Made by a program: the position numbers and the translations under genes. Positions 3,761 through 43,277 of a stretch of DNA of 64,000 nt are shown here, piece by piece. The stretch is from NCBI RefSeq assembly GCF_025502585.1, contig NZ_CP106679.1:2077501-2141500 (forward strand), in the 5' to 3' direction. The notes beneath the pieces were generated by a model that was given only the letters and a program-made list of their open reading frames with translations, ran no database searches and was not told the DNA's origin. The stretch comes from Reichenbachiella agarivorans. GTDB taxonomy: Bacteria > Bacteroidota > Bacteroidia > Cytophagales > Cyclobacteriaceae. Within the stretch, counting starts at the first letter, position 1, and the number at the start of each line of letters is the position of its first letter.

Positions 3761-3985
3761 CAGTTGTTTTTCGACAGTGTTGATACATAGCTTTCAGGAC
3801 AAGAATATATACGGAGCAACAGAGTAGGGCTACTGCGTTGAGTTTTTGAACCAGTAGTACATTTCTGAATCTGGAGATCAACGCACATCAATCCAGACAC
3901 TGCCTAGAAAAATATTAGCACCCTCAATTAGTGGGTTAGATTCTAAAATCAAGCATTTTTAGATTGAGAAAAGTGCAGAGTGTAC

Positions 3986-4011
3986 TATATTCGGTTAGAA
4001 ACAGGGGGGGG
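3986..4011 (+). promoter_or_regulatory. Promoter-like box and G8 homopolymer upstream of lipoprotein gene
   Basis: TATATTCG at 3986-3993 differs by one base from TAnnTTTG. It is followed 10 bp later by eight consecutive G residues (4004-4011), 20 nt before the ATG at 4031. If the box is used, the G tract falls at about the transcription start or early leader. Long G runs are rare in this moderately AT-rich DNA. Confidence 0.4.
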
Positions 4012-4030
4012 ATTCAAAAACTAAGAAAAG

Positions 4031-5116
4031 ATGAGAGATAAAACTATTTTTATTCTACTGACACTGTTTTTGTTTAATTGTTCTAACAATGAACCAGAAC
4101 CATCTCTTGACATGGACGAAGGTCGAAAGTTTAAGATGGGATTCAGTACTTGGGTCTTTGGACCAACTGAACAAGACAGAAATGAAACCTATTCGTTTAT
4201 ACAGTCAAATGGGGATATATATTCTGAACAAGTAGACGATAGAATACCGTGGAATTCTTGGATCAATGATCTGGAATTACCAATTGATTTTGTTCAGAGT
4301 ATCGATGACCGTGTAAACATGATAGATAAAAACCTTTCGCTTGTTTTATCTATAAGCCCACTAAATACTAGCAGAAACGACTTAAAAGAGGATTGGGATG
4401 GTTTGCCAATTGAGTACAACTCCATTAACGAACTGAAAATTGAAGATGCATATTTTAAGCATGTTGAATATCTTGTTGGACGTTTTAATCCTAAATATCT
4501 GGTCTCAGCAATGGAACCTAATGATTTATTAATAAATTCAACTGCTAAATGGGCTGATTTTAAATTGCTAGCAAGCAATGTACGATCTCGTCTTAAAACG
4601 AGGTTTCCATCGCTCCTAATTTCCGAATCTATCACACTACACAATTACTTTCAACCACAAGTGGATAATCCATCGGACTATATACAAGAAGTATCAGATT
4701 ATTCGGAAGAGTTTGATTTTATCGCTATCAGCTTCTATCCCTTTTTCAAGAATCTTCAAACAATAGAAGAATATCAGGAGGCTTTCGATTTTCTGCACAA
4801 TCAATTTAATAAGCCTATAGCTTTTGTTGAAACCAGCCACTTATCAGGTGACCTAGTAATTCCCAATCTCAACACCAACATAACTGGATCTCTTACTAGA
4901 CAAAAGGAATATCTGGAAACGCTTGTGTCAAATGCTCACACGAATAATTATGAATTTATAATATGGTGGGCTCATAGGGACTATGATGCATTGTGGGAAA
5001 CCTTTCCAGATGAAGTTAAGGATATTGGACAAGTCTGGAGAGATACAGGACTATTGGATGAGGATGGAGTGGAACGACCAGCCTTTTCAGTTTGGACAAA
5101 CGAATTTCAAAACTAA
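4031..5116 (+). CDS. Putative clan GH-A-like glycoside hydrolase lipoprotein
   Basis: 361 residues with a lipoprotein signal: a short hydrophobic stretch (IFILLTLFLF) followed by NCSNNEPEP, with Cys17 as probable lipid anchor. The mature part looks like a TIM barrel of clan GH-A: AMEPND (about residues 158-163) fits the strand-4 acid/base position, and FVETSH (about 265-270) fits the strand-7 nucleophile, as in GH53-like enzymes. FIIWWAHRDYD follows near strand 8. Substrate unknown. The gene is visibly richer in A+T than its neighbours and is followed 5 nt after its stop by an attC-like site, suggesting horizontal acquisition as a cassette. Family placement is tentative. Confidence 0.6.
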   Translation: MRDKTIFILLTLFLFNCSNNEPEPSLDMDEGRKFKMGFSTWVFGPTEQDRNETYSFIQSNGDIYSEQVDDRIPWNSWINDLELPIDFVQSIDDRVNMIDKNLSLVLSISPLNTSRNDLKEDWDGLPIEYNSINELKIEDAYFKHVEYLVGRFNPKYLVSAMEPNDLLINSTAKWADFKLLASNVRSRLKTRFPSLLISESITLHNYFQPQVDNPSDYIQEVSDYSEEFDFIAISFYPFFKNLQTIEEYQEAFDFLHNQFNKPIAFVETSHLSGDLVIPNLNTNITGSLTRQKEYLETLVSNAHTNNYEFIIWWAHRDYDALWETFPDEVKDIGQVWRDTGLLDEDGVERPAFSVWTNEFQN

Positions 5117-38512: not shown

Positions 38513-39799
38513 TTAATTTTGAGCAAAATTTGAAGTTGGGAACAGAATTGAAACTTCATGTGTTTTATTGTCTGTTTGGTACATATACGACAATTCGTAG
38601 TGAGACAATTCGCATATTTTATTAACGATAGACAATCCCAATCCAATCGAATCGCTATTTGAACTGGATTTTTTGAAACGTCCCAACAGGGTCTCTGTGG
38701 ACGAACTTGGTTCGTCTCCTGAGTTCGATATTTTGAAACCTTCTTGGGTCAGTTTGATATGGATAAAACCATTCTCCACATTGTGCTTGATCGCATTTTG
38801 CAGCAGATTGCTGAGTAGGATTTCCAGTAGGATGGGATCATTTTGGATGCTGACATTTTCTGCAATGCTTGTGCTGACTTCTAGGTTTTTGAGTTCAAAA
38901 ATGTCTTCTTTTTCTGTTTTGAGCAGATTGATCATTTCGCTCAGGTTGATGGTTTTGTCACGTTTGAATTCCTCGTTCTCTATTTTGCTGAGTGTGATCA
39001 AGGACTGCTGTATCCTAGAGACTTTGTTGAGTGCGCCTTGCGCATTGGAGATAATTTCGACCTGTTTTTCATTCAAGTCTTTGTCTTGAAACAACAAATC
39101 CAGATTGCCAGAGGCAATTGCCAGCGGTGTACGTATCTCGTGTGCGATGTTTTCTGAAAATTCCTTGAGATTGATGTAGTCTCTTACCGCTCTGTGGGTC
39201 ATGTTTTCGATGAAGTCATTTAGTTTTCTGAACTCATAGGTGTGGGTGACATTGGTGACTATCGGGACTGCATTCTGAACATTGAAATCCTTGATTTTGT
39301 TTAGCGATTCATGAAAGGGACGCAGGAGCCACTTGGAGATAAATAAACTGTACAATACCGACAAGATGGTCAACAGTAAGAAGACTGCTGCAGTAGCTTT
39401 GAACGTCCCGTAGAAAGTATCTAGTGGCTCGACGACAGATTCAAATATCTTGAAACGATACCAGACACCATCGATTTTGAGTGTTTTATTGATTTTGCGG
39501 TGATGAATCACTGCTTTGGACGGATGGTGATAAGCCATCGTATCTGCAAACGAGCGACTTTCTTTGATCCCTACTGTGTCACGGAGCTGTTTGATGTCTA
39601 TGCGGTAGTCCGTCAATGAGTCGTAGGGCAAGTCTTTTTTAATCAATCCTGCCAACTGATTGACTTGACCGTTGAGCTCATAGTCTGTTTCCTTGTCAAT
39701 CAACTGTGTGAAGGTCACGTAGTAGTACACGCCCCCTAGTGACATCACGATGAGACTCAGGAGTAAATAAAAAAGGACGAATTTTTGAACTAGTTTCAT
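38513..39799 (-). CDS. Sensor histidine kinase (HisKA type)
   Basis: 428 residues. Two membrane helices (about 8-28 and 135-155) enclose a periplasmic sensor domain of about 105 residues. The phospho-acceptor His is in FSENIAHEIRTPLAIASGNL. The ATPase domain has LLSNLLQNAIKHN (N box) and SDSIGLGLSIVNKI (G box). Overlaps the response regulator start region by 4 nt and is followed by the TonB receptor gene, forming a probable three-gene operon. Confidence 0.92.
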   Translation of the reverse strand: MKLVQKFVLFYLLLSLIVMSLGGVYYYVTFTQLIDKETDYELNGQVNQLAGLIKKDLPYDSLTDYRIDIKQLRDTVGIKESRSFADTMAYHHPSKAVIHHRKINKTLKIDGVWYRFKIFESVVEPLDTFYGTFKATAAVFLLLTILSVLYSLFISKWLLRPFHESLNKIKDFNVQNAVPIVTNVTHTYEFRKLNDFIENMTHRAVRDYINLKEFSENIAHEIRTPLAIASGNLDLLFQDKDLNEKQVEIISNAQGALNKVSRIQQSLITLSKIENEEFKRDKTINLSEMINLLKTEKEDIFELKNLEVSTSIAENVSIQNDPILLEILLSNLLQNAIKHNVENGFIHIKLTQEGFKISNSGDEPSSSTETLLGRFKKSSSNSDSIGLGLSIVNKICELSHYELSYMYQTDNKTHEVSILFPTSNFAQN

Positions 39800-40476
39800 T
39801 CGGAGAGTGCGTATTTGTATCCTGATCCGTAGACAGTCTGGATAAAGTCATTGCCACCTGCAGAGATAATCTTTTTTCTCAGGTTTTTGATATGTTGATA
39901 GACAAAATCCAGTGATCCCAGACTGTCTGCATAGTCACCCCAGAGATGCTCAGCGATGGCTGGTCTGGTGATGATGCGGTTTTTGTTGGCATAGATATAG
40001 ACGAGCAGATCATATTCTTTCTTGGTGAGGTTGAGGATTTGATTATGGACACTTACTTCTTGCTTGTCTGTATCGATGGTGATATTGCCCAGTACCAGAT
40101 TTTGATTGCCATCCAGTTTGTTGCGACGGTAGAGTGCCTTGAGTCTGGCGATGAGCTCCGTCATGAAGTAGGGCTTGGTGATGTAATCATCCGCACCTAG
40201 ATTGAGACCATCTACTTTGTCATTGATTTGGTCTTTGGCAGAGGCAATGAGGATACTGACACTCAGGTTGCGAGATTTGATGAAGGGGATGATGTCTATC
40301 CCGTCACCATCAGGGAGCATTCTGTCGAGGATGATGATGTCGTATTGAAAGGCCACCAATTTGTCCTGACACTCTTGGATGCTGTTGGCACATTCACATA
40401 TGATGCCTTCATTTTGAAGGTAGGTGACGATGTTGGTTTGTAAGGCTTTGTTGTCTTCAGTCAGTAATACTTTCAT
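39796..40476 (-). CDS. OmpR/PhoB-family response regulator
   Basis: 226 residues. Receiver starts MKVLLTEDNKALQTNIVTYL; phospho-acceptor Asp is in IIILDRMLPDGDG (about 52); Lys in ILIASAKDQ is the conserved switch region. C-terminal winged helix: LTKKEYDLLVYIYANKNRII and SLGSLDFVYQHIKNLRKKII. First gene of the regulator-kinase-TonB receptor operon. Its start lies 67 bp from the left end of the 21-bp repeat array, so the array may be upstream control DNA for this gene too. Confidence 0.93.
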   Translation of the reverse strand: MKVLLTEDNKALQTNIVTYLQNEGIICECANSIQECQDKLVAFQYDIIILDRMLPDGDGIDIIPFIKSRNLSVSILIASAKDQINDKVDGLNLGADDYITKPYFMTELIARLKALYRRNKLDGNQNLVLGNITIDTDKQEVSVHNQILNLTKKEYDLLVYIYANKNRIITRPAIAEHLWGDYADSLGSLDFVYQHIKNLRKKIISAGGNDFIQTVYGSGYKYALSE

Positions 40477-40815
40477 GTCTTTTAATAATCCTGATTACAA
40501 AGTAAGCAGGAGATTCTGTATTTTCTTTGAAGCTCAAGCAATTAGGGTAAAAGTCAATATAAATAGGTAAAATGAGAATTCAACTCGGATAAAAAATAAC
40601 TTATCTAGGATAAAAGATAAAATAGATAGGTTAAAACATAGATCATATAGGTTAAAAGTTAAAATTAATTAGTGAAAACATAATTTTCATAGGTTAAACA
40701 GTAAGATAGTTATGGTAAAAGATAACCTAGTTAGACTAAAGACTAAGTGATATAAGGAAAATTTGATTATGGATGTGTAAAAGACTATATTGATATAGAA
40801 ATCCAAACTACCACT
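40477..40815. other. Intergenic region of 339 bp holding the 21-bp array
   Basis: Between the divergent response regulator and HTH genes. 40477-40543 shows no repeat and should hold the leftward promoter; 40544-40795 is the repeat array; 40796-40815 is leader to the HTH start. No reading frame of note survives: the most array-like frame has stops in several units. Confidence 0.7.
40544..40795 (+). repeat. Array of twelve degenerate 21-bp direct repeats with invariant AAA core
   Basis: Units start at 40544, 40565, 40586, 40607, 40628, 40649, 40670, 40691, 40712, 40733, 40754 and 40775, exactly 21 bp apart with no insertion or deletion. Consensus TAGGTTAAAAGATAA plus six variable bases. Across the twelve units T1, A7, A8, A9 and A14 are invariant; G4 is in 11, A2, T13 and A15 in 9, G3 and T6 in 8. 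The 21-bp period is two helical turns, placing the A tracts on one DNA face. It ends 20 bp before the HTH gene at 40816. Candidates: operator array, curved DNA, or iteron-like sites. Confidence 0.88.
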
Positions 40816-41157
40816 ATGCTAAAACTTAACCTTGAGTACATCTTTAGAATTCGGGCGATCAAAAACCCATATGGATTTATTAAAAAACTTGGCTTCAGTC
40901 ATGATGTGTGTCATCGTCTAGCACATGGACAGACATTGGGCGTGAAAATGAATCAGCTAGAGGCGCTTTGTCTTGCGCTACACTGCACACCAAATGATCT
41001 CATGGAGTTCAAAGACCTAGACAACAAGGTCAGCTCCGATCATCCTATGAACGCCCTCATTCGTGACAGTGCTACACTCGATAGCATGGACAAGTTGAGA
41101 AAGCTACCACTGGACAAAATCGAACTACTGCAAAAAATGATGGAGAATCTGGAGTAG
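40816..41157 (+). CDS. Small helix-turn-helix (XRE/Cro-like) regulator
   Basis: 113 residues. The N-terminal HTH spans about residues 14-67: FIKKLGFSHDVCHRLAHGQT carries the turn and recognition helix, and MNQLEALCLALHCTPNDLME closes the domain as in Cro/C1 proteins. The C-terminal 45 residues are acidic and helical (SMDKLRKLPLDKIELLQKMM). It begins 20 bp after the 21-bp repeat array, which makes autoregulation an attractive idea but is not shown. Monocistronic or coupled with the gene at 41182, 24 bp downstream. Confidence 0.85.
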   Translation: MLKLNLEYIFRIRAIKNPYGFIKKLGFSHDVCHRLAHGQTLGVKMNQLEALCLALHCTPNDLMEFKDLDNKVSSDHPMNALIRDSATLDSMDKLRKLPLDKIELLQKMMENLE

Positions 41158-41181
41158 TTTAGAGGCAGAACTTGTAGGATC

Positions 41182-42006
41182 ATGGCTTTTGATTCTATAC
41201 AATTGACCAAGATGACAACACAGATGAAAACCACCACAGACCAGTTGAAGAGAACGGTTTCTGTTCCAGATTTTCCACAAAGGATCATCAGTTTGGTCCC
41301 TTCGATCACAGAGCTGTTGTTTGATCTTGGATTGGGAGATAGGGTCGTTGGGATTACCAAGTTTTGTGTACATCCAGCGCGCGGACTGCAAGAAAAGACC
41401 AAGATAGGAGGAACCAAAAATATCAAGACAGAGCGCATTGCCAGTTTGAATCCTGACCTGATCTTGGCCAACAAAGAAGAAAATACGAAAAGCGATATCG
41501 AAGGGATTTGGGATCAATATCCCGTGTGGGTCTCGGATGTCAATGGCTTGTCGGATGCGTTGGATATGATTGAATCCGTGGGTTGGATGACCCAAACCGA
41601 GACGCTGGCTGGCAAATGGATATCTGACATAGAGGCGTCATTTGCGCAGCTGACAAAACGGACTCACGTACGAACATTGTATATGATCTGGCAGTCACCT
41701 TGGATGTCTGTGGGGACTGATACTTTTGTTTACGACATGCTGTCTCGCTGTGGATTTGATTCGGTGATTCGAGAGACACGCTATCCGCAGTTGACTGATG
41801 AAGAAATCATCGGATTGAACCCTGAGGTCGTGTTGCTTTCTTCTGAACCCTTTCCTTTCAAGGAAACGCACGTCCAACGAATGCAGGAGATACTGCCAGA
41901 GGCCAAAGTCATCTTGGTAGATGGAGAGATGTTCAGCTGGTATGGCAGTCGTCTAGGCTTGAGTGCGGCCTATTTTCAATCTATCATGAGGGAGATTTTG
42001 TGGTGA
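41182..42006 (+). CDS. BtuF-like helical-backbone metal receptor without signal peptide
   Basis: 274 residues of the class III periplasmic-binding fold (cobalamin/siderophore type): RIISLVPSITELLFDLGLGD (about 34-53), VVGITKFCVHPARG, SLNPDLILANKEENTKSDIE and SVGTDTFVYDMLSRCGFDSV. No hydrophobic signal or lipobox is visible from any start codon (41182 or Met at 41212), so it may be cytoplasmic, unlike a normal BtuF. No TonB or ABC partner adjoins. The natural ligand is unknown. Confidence 0.78.
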   Translation: MAFDSIQLTKMTTQMKTTTDQLKRTVSVPDFPQRIISLVPSITELLFDLGLGDRVVGITKFCVHPARGLQEKTKIGGTKNIKTERIASLNPDLILANKEENTKSDIEGIWDQYPVWVSDVNGLSDALDMIESVGWMTQTETLAGKWISDIEASFAQLTKRTHVRTLYMIWQSPWMSVGTDTFVYDMLSRCGFDSVIRETRYPQLTDEEIIGLNPEVVLLSSEPFPFKETHVQRMQEILPEAKVILVDGEMFSWYGSRLGLSAAYFQSIMREILW

Positions 42007-42086
42007 AGTGGCTCGTCAGGTTTTGTTTCCTGACGAAGAAATCCTAAGTTGTACCATAAACCATCCTACATCCATAGTCCCTTGAA

Positions 42087-43277
42087 ATGAGAATCGGTAT
42101 CTGTTGTTTCTTTCTGCTGCTCATCTCTCAACCTATCCTGGCTCAAGTAGATGAGCCTCTAGTCAATGACAGTCTCCTGGCTGAGAAGGATATACTGGAC
42201 GTAATATTCAAGAAACGCCGAGACAGTACCGAGCAAGTCAAACTAGAAGAAGAGAAGAAGGTGTACTTTTCGCTTATGCCCTTGTCCTCTGGGTCAGGTG
42301 GTCCTAACATTGCCATATCTGTGGTCAATGCGTCCTTTCGGATGGGCGACAAGGAGACTACCAAGTTTTCCAACGTCACACTCTATCCATCGACCAATCT
42401 GAGTACTTACTTTCACCTCAAGGTAATACCCAATCTCTGGCTGGCAGACAACAACTGGAATATTCCGGGCAAGTTGGAGATCGCGCAGGAAGCACAGGAC
42501 AACTTTGGATTGGGAGGGGATACCTCCGAAGACAGTTTGTTCGTGATTCATTACTCCGTGAGCAAGGCCATTGTCTCATTCAACAAGCGACTAGTCAATC
42601 ATGTGTATTTGGGTGCAGGTTATGCATTGGACTACTACTATCATCTCAGGGAAGTATCCGACGAATGGCGTCAGACAGACTTTGATCGACATGGGTATGG
42701 AACTGATGCAACGAGTGTTTCCTCTGGGTTGTCGATTAACATGCTGATAGATAGTCGTGTCAATCCTATCAATCCTCTCGAAGGGTTCTTTACCAATCTG
42801 ATCTTGAGAGTCAACCCGATCTGGATGGGCAGTGACGAGCTATGGTATGCACTGTATTTGGATACACGCAAGTACATCAATCTGAGCAAAGAAAAACACC
42901 GAGTATTGGCATTTTGGGGACTGTATTGGGCGACTTGGGGAGATGTGCCTTATCTAAATTTGCCTGCGAGTGGCTTGGATTTTTTGGGATCATCAGGGCG
43001 AGGATATAGTCGGGCGAGATACAGAGGACAGCAAATGCTGTACACAGAGGTTGAGTTTCGATTTGATCTCACCCAAAATGGTCTTTTGGGTGGCGTGGTG
43101 TTTACCAATTGTCAAAGTATCATGGAAGAGGACAGTCGAGAATTTAAATACCTCAATCCTGCTATTGGCACGGGTCTACGGTTGAAATTCAATAAATTTT
43201 CTGATTCCAACCTTACGTTCGATATAGGCTATGGAGATGGTTTCAACTGGTACCTTGGTCTCAATGAGTACTTCTAG
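42087..43277 (+). CDS. Omp85/BamA-like outer-membrane surface-antigen barrel protein
   Basis: 396 residues with signal peptide (GICCFFLLLISQPILAQ). Residues 17 onward give a short linker then a beta-barrel. GRGYSRARYRGQQMLYTEVE resembles the L6 region with the RGY/RFRG-type motif of the Omp85 superfamily, and the barrel ends NLTFDIGYGDGFNWYLGLNE with an aromatic C-terminus. No POTRA domains precede it, so it is not a BamA proper; a role in surface protein or lipid export is conjecture. Followed by a strong bidirectional hairpin. Confidence 0.75.
   Translation: MRIGICCFFLLLISQPILAQVDEPLVNDSLLAEKDILDVIFKKRRDSTEQVKLEEEKKVYFSLMPLSSGSGGPNIAISVVNASFRMGDKETTKFSNVTLYPSTNLSTYFHLKVIPNLWLADNNWNIPGKLEIAQEAQDNFGLGGDTSEDSLFVIHYSVSKAIVSFNKRLVNHVYLGAGYALDYYYHLREVSDEWRQTDFDRHGYGTDATSVSSGLSINMLIDSRVNPINPLEGFFTNLILRVNPIWMGSDELWYALYLDTRKYINLSKEKHRVLAFWGLYWATWGDVPYLNLPASGLDFLGSSGRGYSRARYRGQQMLYTEVEFRFDLTQNGLLGGVVFTNCQSIMEEDSREFKYLNPAIGTGLRLKFNKFSDSNLTFDIGYGDGFNWYLGLNEYF

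Follow-up and report, generated by a model that had tools for sequence, protein, structure and literature searches.

Why is a small helix-turn-helix (HTH) gene of Reichenbachiella agarivorans preceded by twelve evenly spaced repeats, and which protein do these repeats serve? The array lies in a window of 64,000 nucleotides (contig NZ_CP106679.1, positions 2,077,501 to 2,141,500), which is the whole stretch of DNA that was analysed. The genome is a single contig of 4.47 Mb and carries a second copy of the HTH protein, 41% identical; homologues are also present in Reichenbachiella agariperforans and R. versicolor of the same genus. Numbered along the window, the features that matter here are the following.

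39796-40476, minus strand: OmpR-type regulator gene, divergent, with a histidine kinase
40543..40794, plus strand: array of twelve 21-bp direct-repeat units starting at 40543+21k, unit consensus about TAGGTTAAAAGATAA, then 6 variable bases
40795..40815, plus strand: gap of 21 bp between the array and the start codon
40815..40835, plus strand: possible further unit over the HTH start codon (15.1 bits), one base off phase
40816-41157, plus strand: HTH_26 (Cro/C1-type, PF13443) gene of 113 residues, the proposed array binder
from 24 bp after the HTH gene: periplasmic binding-protein gene

The twelve units follow each other in strict 21-bp steps with zero indels. A preliminary description of this DNA had the array right in kind and in its place between the OmpR-type regulator and the 113-residue HTH gene, and had its start 1 bp too late: it runs from 40543 to 40794 and lies 21 bp, not 20 bp, from the HTH gene. 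With the start at 40543 the column counts given there are exact, T1, A7, A8, A9 and A14 being invariant in all twelve units and G4 in eleven. The lag-21 self-match is 0.571 versus 0.340 +/- 0.029 in 2000 dinucleotide shuffles (maximum 0.437), and the folded information amounts to 19.8 bits versus 10.0 +/- 0.66 in shuffles (maximum 12.5). The array is thus real and far beyond what shuffles of the same composition reach. Lags of 42, 63 and 84 are as strong as lag 21 (self-match 0.56-0.60), and Tandem Repeats Finder picks up the array as a fragment only (3.8 copies of 21, 3.2 of 42). Mean identity between the window units is 0.59. Because identity between units is low, phased selection on a few positions explains the array better than a recent duplication, as had been proposed.

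When the units are scored with the matrix that they themselves define, ten reach 13.0 to 23.4 bits and the last two are weaker (10.4 at 40753, 11.0 at 40774); the array is ten clear units plus two weak ones. The best matches elsewhere in the window score 10.6 and 10.2 bits. Eleven units and the off-phase match at 40815 outrank all other sites of the window, the unit at 40774 barely so, and the unit at 40753 does not. The match over the start codon may simply reflect the codons of MLKLN. The sequence TAnnTTTG, the Bacteroidetes -7 promoter motif, is absent from the 420 bp upstream of the HTH gene, and promoter and ribosome site would have to overlap or abut the array.

Within the R. agarivorans genome, the unit was found as a tandem pair (up to 3 mismatches) seven times inside the array and once outside, the control giving 0. 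Single sites are not enriched, with 63 matches including the array versus 252 for the reversed pattern. The outside pair (L183, G000:C1:2695645-2695675, 3 mismatches) is situated about 100 bp upstream of a gene which we take to be thioredoxin-like; it may be a coincidence.

A coding repeat was rejected for the window array, every frame being closed on both strands. Over the arrays of the homologues described below, an open frame was found on the gene strand in 8 of 60 and on the other strand in 10 of 60, versus 1.1 in a mononucleotide shuffle; a period divisible by 3 raises openness by itself, and one homologue, L033, has a period of 20. An RNA element was likewise rejected (fold z -1.17; no Rfam match at the gathering threshold in 39500-42200).

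The window protein scores 34.3 bits against PF13443 (curated cut-off 22), and the homologues at L078, L033 and L041 exceed the cut-off as well. Its AlphaFold2 model (mean pLDDT 88.1, pTM 0.58) predicts a five-helix HTH in residues 6 to 62 and C-terminal helices at 77-81, 85-96 and 99-112. Foldseek matches of the model are mostly Cro/C1-type, none at E<=0.001, and relatives of solved structure are weak and of the size of the HTH only. No NCBIfam family was found for the nine members of the family profile; PHROG matches are weak and at HTH level (best for 4 of the 9 members), and PADLOC gave one weak match for one of the nine. Searches of 72,556 plasmid and 50,697 phage records gave no tblastn match (E<=1e-5) to the window protein.

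Whether the array belongs to this gene can be judged from its homologues. A profile built from nine of them was used for a search of genome contigs (80 of 131 loci kept), to which a 295-genome sample of the taxonomic family of the window was added. HMM location gave 91 homologues at 60 bits or more, and 78 after removal of duplicates and of loci with less than 120 bp upstream. Lags from 8 to 34 were compared, with z taken against max-over-lag shuffles (200 each). The best upstream period is exactly 21 in 70 of the 78 homologues, a set which includes the window locus and close relatives (L027/L028, L108/L109, several Flavobacterium) and is not fully independent. In 67 of them z exceeds 3, L032, L046 and L087 having the period with z below 3. 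Among the eight others, a period of 20 is best for L033 (z 26.5), L051 (z 2.9) and L057 (z 2.7) and a period of 31 for L073 (z 4.1), and no period signal was found between lags 8 and 34 for L013, L030, L084 and L089. In a phylum sample, 7 of 395 genomes carry the family at E<=1e-18, the genome of the window included. All six further homologues (L169-L173 and L175, two from one genome) have 21 as their best period with z above 3; two more with period 21 were set aside, L168 because it equals L062 over 70 residues and L174 as the paralogue in the window genome. The search of related loci that the preliminary description had called for thus recovers the signal.

Neighbouring genes rarely share it. 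For 398 upstream regions of neighbours (30 shuffles each), 21 was the best lag in 19, two of these with z above 3, one being the L084 array discussed below; at any lag, 28 exceeded z 3. In the 760 kb of the window and the 78 loci, a threshold of 0.5 gave 68 period-21 peaks versus 1-6 at any other period between 13 and 34. The 68 count the window array twice (also as L001) and include seven peaks elsewhere, one of them an N run that counts at any period. At this threshold a peak adjoins the gene in 59 of the 78 loci and none does in 19. Array calls scoring above 25 were made within the 900 bp in front of the gene for 71 of the 78. Repeats of other periods were also seen: L033, from a Pyrinomonadaceae MAG, carries a strongly conserved 20-bp unit at -392 to -212, and L048 (Aquimarina) has a strong repeat of 14-bp period at about 600-760.

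The arrays resemble each other in architecture. The 65 best arrays have a median of 11 units, with 9-13 units in 51; the automatic array finder placed L011 and a few others with five units or fewer wrongly or doubtfully. The 3' edge of the array lies at a median of -56 bp from the start codon and within 100 bp of it in 55 of 65, and five arrays (L021, L111-L113, L115) reach within 3-18 bp. The promoter motif TAnnTTTG occurs between -90 and -10 in 12 of 65 cases (4.2 expected; maximum of 200 shuffles 11) and is missing near the start in the remaining 53. Low identity between the units of one array is general (median 0.55 over 60 arrays).

In 59 arrays the information forms one block per unit, and no second peak was found at 10-11 bp within the unit. 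The units are direct repeats and mostly non-palindromic, with a mean palindrome z of 0.04 over 62 arrays (window 0.24) and p below 0.05 in two only, L078 (z 5.3) and L038 (z 1.8). The power of this test is moderate because two palindromic comparison arrays, beside other genes at L084 and L065, score only 2.5 and 2.8. As a group, the arrays do not show the palindromic site of a dimeric Cro/C1 operator. In L026, L061, L085, L042 and L088 two unit types alternate with a super-period of 42 bp, as if there were two binding modes or block duplications.

Gene neighbourhood was compared by clustering the genes within six of the HTH gene at the 78 loci, some with flanks of only 1.5 kb. No neighbour gene is common to most loci; the largest cluster, which is sensor-kinase-like, reaches 8 of 78. 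In seven Flavobacterium loci one gene lies directly downstream, and six of these same loci share an upstream gene. Among 119 neighbour proteins scanned (of 135 past the filters), the commonest Pfam families, PIN and two TPR models, occur three times each (best 25 of 130 families). Defence or mobile cargo was rejected as a common context, no neighbour family occurring more than three times among the 119 and PADLOC matches being scattered. Of 76 genes that follow the HTH gene, 47 point the same way and 29 are convergent, with gaps of up to 949 bp; 11 of the 47 start within 26 bp of the HTH stop, the one in the window at 24 bp among them, and seven of these eleven probably represent one orthologous Flavobacterium context. 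Five of the 78 loci, the window among them, have a response-regulator gene no more than six genes away, and 2 of the 119 scanned neighbours are response regulators. The OmpR-type regulator, which had been considered as a possible user of the array, is thus not supported as its general partner. The surroundings of the homologues mostly differ, and 70 of 78 have period 21 upstream all the same; the array thus goes with the HTH gene, and a stand-alone module of HTH gene and array is the best reading.

The unit sequence follows the protein. Unit similarity and protein identity are correlated (Mantel r 0.54, p 5e-4; 61 arrays, 1830 pairs), in part because array and gene are neighbours and thus co-inherited. 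At 60-80% protein identity, unit similarity is 0.63 on the same strand versus 0.34 on the opposite strand; at 40-50% a small excess remains (0.33 versus 0.29), and below 40% the strands are alike (0.29-0.30 versus 0.29). Among proteins less than 60% identical, units correlate only weakly with the recognition region (0.14, partial 0.13). Distant homologues retain the period, not the letters. A motif GACTTnnTTTT is nevertheless common to Flavobacterium and Bacteroidales proteins that are only about 40% identical. Paralogues within one genome have unrelated units (L001/L010 0.22, L012/L020 0.29, and L011/L021 0.18 with the L011 array poorly placed), and the orthologues L010 and L020 have a unit similarity of 0.81.

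Divergence of array and gene was compared in three pairs; L041/L044, L112/L113, L048/L054 and L027/L028 were left out because their units had been aligned in a wrong register. For L015/L116, identity is 96% in the gene and 93.5% in the 46 bp that directly precede it; the arrays, of 12 units each in the same register, are 56% identical in register versus 46% off register. The arrays are nearer to the conservation of the gene in L108/L109 (88%) and L047/L052 (80%). The L015/L116 site is syntenic within one genus and otherwise of different content, the HTH gene being retained. At the syntenic site L184/L185 the content around the HTH gene differs between genomes of the same genus and the gene stays; some of this cargo, judged by eye, resembles toxin-antitoxin-type genes. 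A clean insertion with an empty site was rejected: the L015/L116 content varies around a gene that stays, and the relatives of the window are too diverged.

Arrays are also found away from an HTH gene. Our survey covered 11 genomes with one pattern, which in several genomes was no commoner than its reversed control. In Flavobacterium enshiense (L041), a second array of the unit of its own HTH array lies between a norC-like gene, about 370-430 bp away, and a gene that by eye looks to be of outer-membrane type. Among 61 arrays, the one whose unit is most similar to it is the HTH array of this genome (0.86). No HTH-family gene was seen beside it by eye (ORFs of at least 70 residues, 12 kb), nor a remnant in the translated gaps. 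F. amniphilum (L068) has three arrays of related units away from the HTH gene. Two lie between convergent gene ends, where promoter control would be senseless. These units are nearer to those of other GACTT proteins than to the known array of their own genome (0.36-0.38); because they are unlike that array, a further paralogue may be their partner.

At L084:3602-3832, an orphan array of about 11 palindromic 21-bp units with a TGTnAGGTTACA core closely precedes a Crp/Fnr-type gene (3906-4568). An HTH-family gene 2.2 kb from this array is without an array of its own. The orphan unit differs from those of related Aquimarina proteins. Crp/Fnr was rejected as a second array-bearing family: homologues matched in 119 of 198 genomes, and in the 30 loci examined the period-21 score was at most 0.41, with 21 as best lag once (0.40). 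At one Crp/Fnr homologue, L154, a 22-bp repeat (self-match 0.90) was observed within 500 bp upstream. L065:43-230 holds near-identical 21-bp units whose palindrome is GGAAAnnnTTTCC. They precede another small HTH-like ORF (321-698), which stays below the HTH_26 cut-off; the same locus also holds a family gene with its own array.

The array, its period, the direct orientation of its units, their tracking of the protein and their adjacency to the gene are established; binding, cooperativity, repression and purpose are the steps we infer. The comparison of homologues makes it very likely that the HTH protein binds its own array, and a cooperative multi-site operator for this protein, one of the roles considered for the array, is the best reading of a period found in 70 of 78 upstream regions. 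A period of 21 kept over unrelated sequences could hardly be selected except via the helix, and two turns return to the same face. Direct asymmetric units point to one protein unit per repeat, arranged head-to-tail. The module would then pair about 9-13 asymmetric sites with a single small protein of Cro/C1 type, built of HTH_26 and a helical C-terminal part, which would recognise a site at each 21-bp step and so meet the same DNA face after every two turns. Adjacent molecules would be in contact, perhaps via their C-terminal helices, and fill the array cooperatively. The filled array would set the expression of its own gene, in the simplest case by a sharp shut-off at a threshold (autorepression). 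As the array edge lies near its own start codon, self-control is likely and repression the simplest sign. If the protein does bind, we regard autoregulation as likely, and we lean towards a repressive sign. The whole scheme, with cooperative head-to-tail binding of the protein along one face of its own array and control of its own promoter, we consider to be slightly on the probable side as judged from sequence comparison.

Several observations count against it. How the host would benefit from an autoregulator with no array but its own is not obvious. The L015/L116 arrays have changed far more than the genes. The promoter motif is absent near the start in 53 of 65 cases, and five arrays come within 3-18 bp of the start codon. 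Period 21 is not the best in 8 of 78 homologues, and z is below 3 in three more. Orphan arrays exist, so that autoregulation may not be the whole role.

One alternative is that the array serves as a nucleation or anchoring site from which a filament acts in architecture, silencing, localisation or a centromere-like role, own-promoter control being a side effect. It would explain why 9-13 sites exceed the need of a simple operator, why arrays of the same or related units occur away from the HTH gene, in two cases where convergent genes meet, why the F. enshiense orphan unit so closely matches the HTH array of its genome, and why the L084 gene has no adjoining array and one 2.2 kb off. We consider it unlikely all the same, since 71 of 78 homologues have an array call within 900 bp upstream, the window unit forms no other array in its genome save one two-unit match, the L084 orphan unit is palindromic and unlike related Aquimarina units, and the neighbours show no link to segregation genes. 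The protein might instead regulate downstream or dispersed genes, with the array as the main control point of a small, genome-specific regulon. The eleven close codirectional genes, among them the binding-protein gene of the window, the intergenic second array in F. enshiense and the two-unit match upstream of another gene in R. agarivorans would fit. However, convergent next genes make up 29 of 76, gaps extend to 949 bp, most of the short gaps probably trace to one Flavobacterium context, no neighbour family recurs more than three times, the norC-side array is far from the norC-like gene, and single sites are unenriched in the window genome; we hold a regulon to be distinctly improbable.

Intrinsically curved DNA, in which phased A tracts would shape the promoter without a dedicated protein, had been suggested by the AAA that recurs in phase in every one of the twelve window units. 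Of 59 arrays, 29 have a conserved A or T tract at least 3 columns long and 30 have none, so that curvature, as judged by such tracts, is not the common principle; the AAA core is a trait of the window array, not of the family. Moreover, the arrays are associated with one protein family and not with promoters in general, and their units track that protein, which leaves curvature very improbable. We give as little credit to the ideas that the array is a neutral minisatellite hot spot or that the divergent OmpR-type regulator uses it as an operator. The 42-bp alternation could stem from block duplication, but the period is fixed across units without common sequence and identity between units is low. 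OmpR-family proteins do bind direct repeats, and five loci have a response regulator within six genes, but only 2 of 119 scanned neighbours are of this kind.

An HTH protein binding its own array cooperatively has partial counterparts among known systems. The iterons at replication origins of plasmids and phages are helically phased direct repeats, about 19-22 bp long, by the gene of their binder, with autoregulation. The arrays share with them phased direct repeats next to the gene of the proposed binder. They differ in being chromosomal, in having about twice as many units and in the protein, about 115 residues and Cro/C1-type, in which no replication domain and no plasmid or phage match was found. 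An iteron replicon has its initiator by the repeats; here there is only the HTH_26 match, no recurring initiator neighbour and no plasmid match. The iteron-like role once considered thus fits in geometry, and nothing points to replication. In ParR-parC, a small DNA-binding protein and an adjoining direct-repeat array, which doubles as its own promoter, are similarly combined. Here the fold is HTH_26 and no partner ATPase gene recurs: no motor ATPase was found among six window genes scanned, and none recurs among the neighbours (best 25 of 130 Pfam families). MraZ, an autoregulator that binds several direct repeats in its own dcw promoter, is similar in having several direct repeats upstream of the gene, and differs in fewer repeats, one-turn spacing, protein family and a fixed operon context.

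The best solved-structure match is Stl2 (8q86, 8rc5; profile E 0.028 over residues 1-68, Foldseek E 1.2e-3 over ~67 columns), reported as the repressor of the phage satellite SaPI2 (PMC11846896). The match is weak and HTH-sized only, and our arrays have no satellite context. In titles and abstract openings of the open-licence literature we found no description of 21-bp arrays of this form, and within these the earlier remark that no described element has this form stands uncontradicted. The nearest report there concerns multi-site binding of BvgA to a promoter (PMC7250471).

A broader view is possible but doubtful. The arrays might define a new class of module, in which a small Cro/C1-type protein would polymerise head-to-tail on a private array with one subunit per two turns. 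The period would be conserved, letters and recognition would drift together and copies would be orthogonal. Arrays could also be seeded elsewhere in the genome, away from promoters, and the filament itself may be the function (architecture, silencing, anchoring, element maintenance). Such a class would span Bacteroidota and, as far as MAGs show, Ignavibacteria and, with period 20, Acidobacteria.

Overall, the spacing of these arrays persists as their sequence turns over, a clear natural example of selection on geometry. The finding predicts a ligand for a family known to the searched libraries only as an HTH domain. The dozens of apparently orthogonal protein-array pairs offer material for the study of helical phasing, cooperativity and the joint change of recognition and operator, and may be useful for sharp genetic switches.
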